Shown one piece after another: positions 48,850-51,296 of a stretch of 64,000 nt of DNA; positions within the stretch are counted from its first letter, which is position 1, and every line of letters begins with the position of its first letter. The notes under the pieces are model-generated. The model ran no database searches. It was not told where the DNA came from and saw only the letters and a program-made list of their open reading frames with translations. The position numbers and the translations under genes were made by a program. Origin of the DNA: Flavobacteriales bacterium. Its GTDB lineage: Bacteria > Bacteroidota > Bacteroidia > NS11-12g > UBA955. The DNA lies in contig CANMCY010000005.1 in the NCBI GenBank assembly GCA_947496375.1, positions 62,001-126,000 of the forward strand, read 5' to 3'.

Positions 48850-49977
48850 TTATGCTCCAATCCAATCCAGATAGTTCCGCTGGTTAATCAGATGAAACGG
48901 CACCTCGGGGTATCCTTTGGCAAAGGCAACGGGTATCCGGCATTTGTCATCCGTCCATTTGCACTCAAAAGCAGTCAATTGCTTGTTTTCAACTTCGATA
49001 AGGTCGATTTCCTGCTGGTCGTAGGTTCGCCAGAAATAACTTTCTGTATCGTGGCTATGGTAGGCATGGTACTTGTTTCTTTCAGACAGAATATATTGTT
49101 CCCAAAGCGCTCCCACATCCCTGCGTACGGCTAGTGGCCTGAAATCGCCGATGAGGGCGTTTCGGATACCATTGTCGGCAAAGTACCATTTGCGTCCTTT
49201 GGCAACTTCCTTTCTCAGGTTACCGCTGTAACCGCCGCGGCTGTAAATAACAAATACTTTGCTCAGCAAATCCAGGTAGCGCTCAACGGTGTTTTTACTC
49301 ATGCCCAGTTGCTGCCCAAGCTCCTGCATGGACACTTCATTTCCCACCTGATGGGCCAGTAATACCAGTAAATCTTTGAGCTTTTGTGAGTTGTTGATTT
49401 GCTCAAACATCAAAATATCTTTGAGTAAGTATGTGTTTACGAGTTCTCTCAGATAATCGGTTTTTTCTTTATAGGTTTTCAACTGACTTATTTCCGGGTA
49501 GCTGCCCAGGATGAGTCTGTCTTCCAGGTTTTGCCGGGTTTGTAGCAAGCTTTCCTTTTGCTTCCATTCCATTTGAGCAAGCGGAAATAAATGGAAATTG
49601 AGCGTTCTGCCTACCAGGGGATTTCCCATTTTCTCAATATCGAATGCAGATGAGCCGGTAAGGATAACATGCAGCGGTTTTATGTTGTCAATCATCAGCT
49701 TCACCTTGCGTGCAACATCGGGAATGAACTGTGCCTCGTCTATTATCAACAGGCGGTATCCCTCCAGCATTTTTCGGTAGTTGGCTATGGTGCGGTTTTC
49801 CAGCAGTATGTGGGTATCGTTGTCCTCACCGTTTAGCCAAAGCGTTGTTTTTTGCTTTTTGCCATATAGGGTTTGAAGCAGTTCGGTCTTGCCTACGCGG
49901 CGTGCTCCCAGCAACAGTGAAACCTTTTGTTTGCTGAGGTTGTCTTCCATGATTTTTAGCAATTTTCGATCAAACAC
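48850..49977 (-). CDS. AAA_14/DUF4143 ATPase
   Basis: The 375-residue protein (GTG start, MFDRKLLKIMEDNL) has Walker A LLLGARRVGKTELLQ, Walker B LLIIDEAQFIPD, and the sensor LTGSSAFDI, followed by a winged-helix-like segment (MQELGQQLGMSKNTVERYLDLL) and a C-terminal DUF4143 region with a degenerate nuclease-like strand (QEIDLIEVENKQLTAFECKWTDD, containing E-x-K). Such STAND-like ATPases are common, often mobile accessory genes in Bacteroidota, and their function is unknown. Three palindromic repeats lie directly upstream and probably govern its expression. Confidence 0.9.
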   Translation of the reverse strand: MFDRKLLKIMEDNLSKQKVSLLLGARRVGKTELLQTLYGKKQKTTLWLNGEDNDTHILLENRTIANYRKMLEGYRLLIIDEAQFIPDVARKVKLMIDNIKPLHVILTGSSAFDIEKMGNPLVGRTLNFHLFPLAQMEWKQKESLLQTRQNLEDRLILGSYPEISQLKTYKEKTDYLRELVNTYLLKDILMFEQINNSQKLKDLLVLLAHQVGNEVSMQELGQQLGMSKNTVERYLDLLSKVFVIYSRGGYSGNLRKEVAKGRKWYFADNGIRNALIGDFRPLAVRRDVGALWEQYILSERNKYHAYHSHDTESYFWRTYDQQEIDLIEVENKQLTAFECKWTDDKCRIPVAFAKGYPEVPFHLINQRNYLDWIGA

Positions 49978-49999: not shown

Positions 50000-50095
50000 T
50001 TAAAACAGTCAATGAAATGACTGAAATAATGTAAAAAACGTCAATAGACTGACAGAATTTATATAAAAAACGTCAATGAACTGACAGAATTTACA
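50000..50095. repeat. Three 32-bp tandem repeats each holding a GTCA-N6-TGAC palindrome
   Basis: Units at 50000-50031, 50032-50063 and 50064-50095 follow each other without spacers. The second and third are identical at 29 of 32 positions; the first matches the third at 23. Each contains GTCA, six bases, TGAC, at 50008-50021, 50040-50053 and 50072-50085. The first palindrome extends to CAGTCA/TGACTG. The 32-base period places the sites about three helical turns apart on one face of the DNA. They lie 31 to 108 bases upstream of the AAA_14 ATPase start codon, so they look like a repressor or activator operator cluster. Confidence 0.85.
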
Positions 50096-50150
50096 TAATT
50101 AGGGTTGGGTTTTTCTTGATAATTAGCGCTTATACCCTTTATTTGTAAGG

Positions 50151-51296
50151 TTAAACGGCTTTTAGGGCATCATCCAGATCCTGAATCAAATCATCGAGAT
50201 GTTCAATGCCTACACTCAGGCGGATTAGCGAATCTTTTAATCCCGATGCTTCCCGCTGTTCCTTAGGAATGCTGGCATGGGTCATGGTTGCCGGGTGCCC
50301 CACCAGACTTTCTACCCCGCCCAGACTTTCAGCGAGCGAGAATAGGTGGGTGTTTTTTAGGAATTTTATGGCCGATTCTACGGAATCGTCCTGTAAGGTA
50401 AATGAGATCATTCCGCCAAAACCCCGCATCTGTTTTTTAGCCACTGAATGTCCCGGATGCTCTTCAAATCCCGGCCAATATACGGTTCCAACTTTTGGAT
50501 GTGCCTTCAGCCAATGAGCGATGGCAGCTCCATTTTCACAGTGTCTTTGCAAGCGCACGTGCAGGGTTTTTATTCCGCGAAGTACCAGAAAGCAATCCTG
50601 TGGGCCGGGTGTGGCGCCACAGCTGTTCTGAATGAAAGCCAGACGGTCTCTGAGAGCAAGATCATTTACACAAAGCGCTCCGAGCACCACATCACTGTGC
50701 CCGTTTATATATTTTGTGGCACTGTGCATCACAATATCTGCTCCATATTGTGCCGGATTTTGCAGGTAAGGGCTGGCAAAGGTATTGTCTACTACCACAA
50801 TCGCACCGGCAGCTTGGCCAATCTGGCAAACTGCTTCTATGTCTATGATACGAAGCAAAGGGTTGGTTGGGGTTTCTGCCCATATCATTTTAGTATTGGG
50901 TGTGATGGCTTTTCGTACGTTTTCAGCATCAGTCATATCTACGAATTGAAAACGAATTCCATAGGGCTCAAAAATCTTGGTAAACAGTCGATAAGTACCT
51001 CCGTACAAATCGTTGGTGCTGATTACTTCATCGCCGGGTTTTAACAATTTTACGCAGGCATCCACAGCGCCCATACCGGTGCTAAAACACAATCCGTAAT
51101 TCATGCCTTCCAGGGCCGCCAGATTTTTTTGCAATACATCCCTGGTAGGATTCTGGGTTCTCGCATATTCATACCCTTTGTGTTCTCCGGGTGCGGCCTG
51201 AACATAGGTGCTGGTCTGAAAAATGGGTGTCATGATGGCGCCTGTTGTGGGGTCAGGTTCAATACCGGCGTGAAGTACCTTGGTTTCGATGTGCAT
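50151..51296 (-). CDS. Cystathionine gamma-synthase/lyase-type PLP enzyme
   Basis: A PLP-dependent Cys/Met metabolism enzyme (trans-sulfuration family), tetrameric and cytoplasmic. The 381 residues show TKVLHAGIEPDPTTGAIMTPIFQTSTY, the YARTQNPTR region, the Asp binding the PLP nitrogen in VVVDNTFASPY, the PLP Lys in HSATKYINGHSD and SLGGVESLVGHPATMTHAS near the end. Members catalyse cystathionine gamma-synthase, gamma-lyase or related reactions that sequence alone does not separate; the HPATMTHAS segment is common in gamma-synthase/lyase enzymes. It stands alone. Confidence 0.9.
   Translation of the reverse strand: MHIETKVLHAGIEPDPTTGAIMTPIFQTSTYVQAAPGEHKGYEYARTQNPTRDVLQKNLAALEGMNYGLCFSTGMGAVDACVKLLKPGDEVISTNDLYGGTYRLFTKIFEPYGIRFQFVDMTDAENVRKAITPNTKMIWAETPTNPLLRIIDIEAVCQIGQAAGAIVVVDNTFASPYLQNPAQYGADIVMHSATKYINGHSDVVLGALCVNDLALRDRLAFIQNSCGATPGPQDCFLVLRGIKTLHVRLQRHCENGAAIAHWLKAHPKVGTVYWPGFEEHPGHSVAKKQMRGFGGMISFTLQDDSVESAIKFLKNTHLFSLAESLGGVESLVGHPATMTHASIPKEQREASGLKDSLIRLSVGIEHLDDLIQDLDDALKAV

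Follow-up and report, generated by a model that had tools for sequence, protein, structure and literature searches.

The window, by which we mean the whole 64-kb stretch of DNA analyzed here, contains a single tandem repeat array (TRF: period 32 bp, 3.0 copies, 83% matches), which lies behind the co-oriented gene of a Cys/Met-metabolism PLP enzyme (50151-51296) and before the start of an AAA_14/DUF4143 ATPase gene on the minus strand (Table 1). Its three units are contiguous and spacerless, and differ pairwise at 9, 8 and 3 of 32 positions. Each has a perfect GTCA-N6-TGAC dyad in the same place, exactly 32 bp from the next; the 64 kb hold no other dyad of this kind. The intergenic region reaches a tandem score of 52.2, whereas 1,000 dinucleotide shuffles of it score 9.9 ± 1.7 and at most 17.5. 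The original prediction had described such repeats 31-108 bases upstream of the ATPase start, and this distance holds for the GTG at 49977. We prefer that start, which gives a protein of 375 aa, over the ATG at 49950 because two orthologues (L022 and L023) have an ATG at the 49977 codon. A CRISPR array was considered and rejected, as there are no spacers between the contiguous units, and a comparison with the structured RNAs of Rfam gave only sub-threshold chance matches.

The protein matches the PADLOC profile for PDC-S01 (PDLC04789) over its full length (1e-147, residues 1-373 of 375), and PDC-S01 profiles likewise match 24 of 24 diverse family members scanned. Pfam finds AAA_14, HTH_11 and DUF4143 domains in it, NCBIfam holds no model for it, and its AF2 model (pLDDT 91) places a helix at residues 228-240. 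The Walker A, the Walker B and the PD-(D/E)XK-like motif are all intact; within the last of these E293, E323, D325 and K340 are invariant and E338 is conserved in at least 90%. Foldseek returned only generic AAA+ relatives at low TM-scores, RuvB, MuB and ORC being among the closest folds. The nearest non-generic relatives of known structure, alike in protein sequence, are the archaeal AAA ATPases PDB 2fna (E 2e-8) and 2qen (2e-4), whose group we take to share a layout of ATPase plus winged helix. PDC-S01 itself is a single-gene phage defence candidate of PADLOC, described as an ATPase joined to a domain of the PD-(D/E)XK superfamily and reported to be the fourth commonest of the defence candidates among prokaryotes (PMC12988326). 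It keeps candidate status here, since a demonstration of antiviral activity was not found in the openly readable literature.

Table 1. Window coordinates of the array, the predicted promoter and the ATPase gene
Feature	Position	Strand	Basis or remark
Array, three contiguous 32-bp units	50002..50098	-	TRF score 129; shuffles
Distal dyad	50072..50085	.	Pattern
Middle dyad	50040..50053	.	Pattern
Promoter-proximal dyad, GTCA-N6-TGAC	50008..50021	.	Contains TTG of predicted -33 element
TTG of predicted Bacteroidota -33 element, inside proximal dyad	50010..50012	-	Predicted from the TTG-N20-TAnnTTTG pattern
-7 box TAACTTTG, 4 nt before start codon	49982..49989	-	Fits consensus TAnnTTTG (PMC9723704)
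PDC-S01 gene, AAA_14 ATPase - winged HTH - PD-(D/E)XK-like (DUF4143), 375 aa, GTG start	48850..49977	-	Pfam, PADLOC, AF2
Walker A, residues 24-31, GARRVGKT	49885..49908	-	G24, R26, G29, K30 invariant
Walker B, D80 E81	49735..49740	-	Invariant
Recognition helix of winged HTH, residues 228-240, KNTVERYLDLLSK	49258..49296	-	AF2; K228 and N229 are the top array-tracking columns
PD-(D/E)XK-like motif, E293 / E323-x-D325 / E338-x-K340	48958..49101	-	Alignment

Upstream arrays in the PDC-S01 family

A search of the 2.49-Mb genome for further sites, as had been proposed, revealed no unrelated copies: the two-dyad pattern occurs without mismatch at the array locus only, and matches with 3 mismatches elsewhere are no more frequent than those of a reversed-pattern control. 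What the genome does contain, beyond anything in the original prediction, is a set of related genes with arrays of their own. Several of its eight clear AAA_14 genes (the low-scoring matches L009-L011 were left out as other ATPases) have a differently spelled array directly upstream, with periods of 32 (L001), 33 (L003), 29 (L004) and 25 bp (L005), and L002 has long dyads instead. A 113-bp unit, repeated 2.8 times and unrelated to the 29-bp array, also lies upstream of L004 (700-1021, contig C25).

The family sample began with 77 genes from about 100 related genomes, to which we added 80 named homologues (from Flavobacterium, Pedobacter, Chitinophaga, Algoriphagus, Prevotella and Parabacteroides, and a small number from Fibrobacterota, Ignavibacteria and Opitutales) and then a phylum sample. 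These were compared with 282 control genes from the same genomes, and an upstream tandem score of at least 20 was counted as an array. This threshold was reached by 39 of 74 family genes in the first set and by 4 of the 282 controls. In the full set, which is more skewed than the first to close relatives of the window's protein, 56% of 196 family genes have an upstream tandem array (controls, 1.4%) and 70% have either an array or a dyad (controls, 2.8%), leaving about 30% below both thresholds. The array period is 32-33 bp in 90 genes and 22-23 bp in 10, corresponding to three or two helical turns; the control genes that passed have periods of 21 or 24. Judged by sequence, the upstream array is thus a phylum-wide rule of a family of defence candidates, with a private array for each paralogue, and not a local oddity. 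Its conservation outside Bacteroidota is at best weakly indicated: among 12 plasmid loci from other phyla, a group not significantly above the control (P 0.066), Treponema has a dyad and a second copy about 32 bp further on, Moraxella and Thermus HB27 have strong dyads, and most others have neither.

Within single genomes, none of 39 paralogue pairs have like operators where 3.5 would be expected (P 0.019), a comparison that depends on a chosen similarity threshold and on few pairs. One genome, G118, holds 14 PDC-S01-type genes (L126, L155-L162 and L170-L174), some of them close neighbours on contigs C41 and C81, and their upstream dyads are mutually different.

The exact two-dyad array was also sought in 97 relatives and 396 genomes of the phylum Bacteroidota, both sets including the window's own genome. 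In these roughly 490 genomes it occurs almost solely beside a family gene or its remnants, most often directly upstream of an intact family ORF, and the array is kept in related strains that carry the ATPase, as the original prediction called for; the reversed pattern gave one match each in two relatives. Places without an intact gene comprise a contig end (L260), two solo arrays with no intact ATPase gene adjacent (L257 and L274), which are possibly remnants or sites that regulate something else, and two genomes with C-terminal remnants only. In these two, G003 (L110/L262) and G238 (L271), separate internal deletions have removed most of the ATPase gene and left the array and the 3' end. In 57 genes of GTCA type, 109 sites fall within the 200 bp upstream and 3 within the 400 bp downstream, so that the repeats do not stand at both ends and were rejected as terminal repeats of a mobile element.

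The gene and its array lie between the PLP-enzyme gene and a DUF2400 gene in four genomes (G000, G001, G002 and G004). The same two neighbours are 12 bp apart in G006, are separated by two repeats and the last ATPase codons in G003, and flank only degraded sequence in G005. Orthologues of 75% identity in another family (G066 and G071) have kept the array, with the gene and the neighbour genes on different contigs; that gene and array occupy a different locus there points to transfer as a unit. A PDC-S01 gene with a CGCCA-type array adjoins rteC on a small Bacteroides finegoldii record (L288, NZ_OY725962.1, 2282-4319), a neighborhood presumably like that on CTnDOT-like elements, and close homologues with CGCCA-type repeats and the same upstream sequence are found in Prevotella, Phocaeicola, Xylanibacter, Leyella and Parabacteroides (L187-L191 and L240). 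This suggests that the CGCCA-type homologues are carried on a CTnDOT-like element. A PDC-S01 homologue of 38% identity also occurs on a contig from a viral collection (L255, IMGVR_UViG_2920175905_000002).

Array sequence and the recognition helix

The spelling of the array follows that of the protein's winged helix. A perfect N6 dyad of one of two classes was present in 62 genes. All 55 of the GTCA class have K at residue 228, and the 7 of the TTCA class have R (6) or T (1) there; ranked by mutual information, this column comes first of 375 and accounts for the entire label entropy. The same region emerged from an unbiased scan of 5,377 pairs, in which, without regard to dyad class, pairwise operator similarity was correlated with identity in 8-residue segments after removal of rest-of-protein identity. 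The segment 223-230 came out best (r 0.19; mean over segments 0.013, sd 0.058), as did 229 and 228 among the 375 single columns. Genes fetched later, less than 90% identical to the earlier ones and bearing such dyads, repeated the pattern (K with GTCA in 9 of 9, R with TTCA in 2 of 2).

K228 is insufficient alone, as 14 of 23 new K228 genes fall in neither dyad class and mostly have other residues at 227 or 229. By eye, DKNT helices go with GTGAAT-type dyads, and a change of N229 to T or S goes with CGCCA-type repeats. GTCA-N6-TGAC is kept in orthologues of 46-47% identity that share the helix SKNTVERYLDLL, and orthologues of 49-50% identity whose helix is GKGTIDKYLDLL or GKSTVDKYLDLL have TTGTCGGAATT repeats. 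On the tree, helix and dyad class change together, with 4 changes needed between the GTCA and TTCA classes (6 with three judged by eye); the tree-corrected K/R sign test draws on only 2-3 changes on well-supported branches and is underpowered. At the level of sequence, the array co-varies with the protein's own winged-helix residues, and the suggestion that the ATPase itself might be the binder is strengthened by it.

Promoter geometry and candidate roles of the array

In GTCA- and TTCA-type genes, 47 of 52 intervals between consecutive perfect dyads measure 32 bp, and the distance from the center of the last dyad to the -7 box is mostly 25-27 or 15-17 bp; these distances differ by one turn of the helix, and echoes of them appear another 32 bp away. 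Over 99 sites, the repeat unit has the consensus nTTAATTnnGTCAnTnnAnTGACnGAATTTAn, which makes a large part of its 32 bp palindromic. The 4-nt gap between -7 box and start codon seen in the window is also the commonest one in the family (36 of 196 family genes, 7 of 282 controls). Leaderless transcripts account for only 5.5% of mapped flavobacterial mRNAs, for which TAnnTTTG is the -7 consensus (PMC9723704).

We consider it probable that the array is an operator bound by the ATPase itself, overlapping the gene's predicted -33 element and serving negative autoregulation. As for an operator, the site is confined to the promoter of its own gene, the two solo arrays excepted, and varies with the recognition helix of its putative regulator. 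According to this view, each GTCA-N6-TGAC dyad would be bound by the winged HTHs of two molecules in a symmetric arrangement, and dyad symmetry together with the 32-bp helical phasing suggests dimeric and cooperative binding. Because the dyads lie three helical turns apart, successive pairs would sit on one face of the DNA, making an ATPase-mediated assembly along the array possible; ATP or a nuclease activity may also have a role at the array. Binding at the proximal dyad, which covers the -33 element, would shut off this compact promoter and its near-leaderless mRNA, and it is this position that speaks for repression rather than activation. The operator spelling of each paralogue would be set mainly by residues 227-229, and a private spelling would mean no cross-regulation among the copies in one cell, with which the mutually distinct operators within a genome fit as independent switches.

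Alternatively, the ATPase may bind the array mainly as a loading, target or self-recognition site, iteron-like or homing-like, and not for promoter control, which we regard as unlikely. The intact PD-(D/E)XK-like motif, the distant fold similarity of the AAA+ part to RuvB, MuB and ORC, and the lack of shared operators among paralogues in one genome would all suit such a role; the sites, however, lie upstream and are phased to the -7 box, the terminal copies expected of a transposon are missing at the 3' end, and the paralogue comparison carries the caveats given above. A related and similarly doubtful possibility is that the operator doubles as an address, such that PDC-S01 excludes incoming elements or paralogues with the same operator and no two genes of one address coexist in a cell, much as in plasmid incompatibility. 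Compatible with this idea are, again, the paralogue pairs and a protein that combines sequence-specific DNA recognition with ATPase and nuclease-like domains.

Less probable still is that a separate regulator encoded elsewhere binds the array and that the ATPase gene is merely what it regulates. Small dedicated repressors do control defence genes through repeated palindromes, among them the dimeric RptR, which represses a Type I RM defence island by binding three short-palindrome repeats in the defence promoter (PMC12255303). Against such an arrangement, the array sequence tracks the recognition helix of the ATPase itself, and arrays differ among the paralogues of one genome. A neutral minisatellite in the AT-rich spacer, or chance inheritance, has next to nothing in its favor, because slippage in AT-rich DNA can yield tandem repeats but does not explain unrelated arrays at the same place before dozens of paralogues, nor their dyad symmetry, preserved 32-bp period and co-variation with the helix.

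The array is therefore best classed, on present comparisons, as most likely an autoregulatory operator array, new in that its reader would be an ATPase with a nuclease-like domain and in that each paralogue would have a private site. It resembles the RptR system in having three repeats with a short palindrome in the promoter of a defence gene, here a candidate one, to which a dimer presumably binds, and differs from it in that RptR is a separate small protein, whereas here the DNA-reading domain lies inside the ATPase and every paralogue has its own site. No description of an operator, a winged-HTH code or autoregulation of PDC-S01 was found in the openly readable literature, and what is openly available on DUF4143 and COG1373, judged by title and abstract, holds nothing on such repeats. 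The autoregulated controller proteins of restriction-modification systems and the operators of toxin-antitoxin systems are a further parallel, in that tandem dyads at a promoter are bound by the product of the same gene. The binders there are small HTH or RHH proteins, in contrast to the AAA+ ATPase with a nuclease-like domain considered here.

If the autoregulatory interpretation is correct, each PDC-S01 member is given a concrete candidate DNA ligand that is partly predictable from its helix, and with the ligand defined, binding, ATP dependence and nuclease action become assayable on a known substrate. Our results also suggest that each PDC-S01 gene travels together with its switch as a self-contained unit, and the family as a whole would provide many naturally occurring operator-reader pairs that differ from one another.
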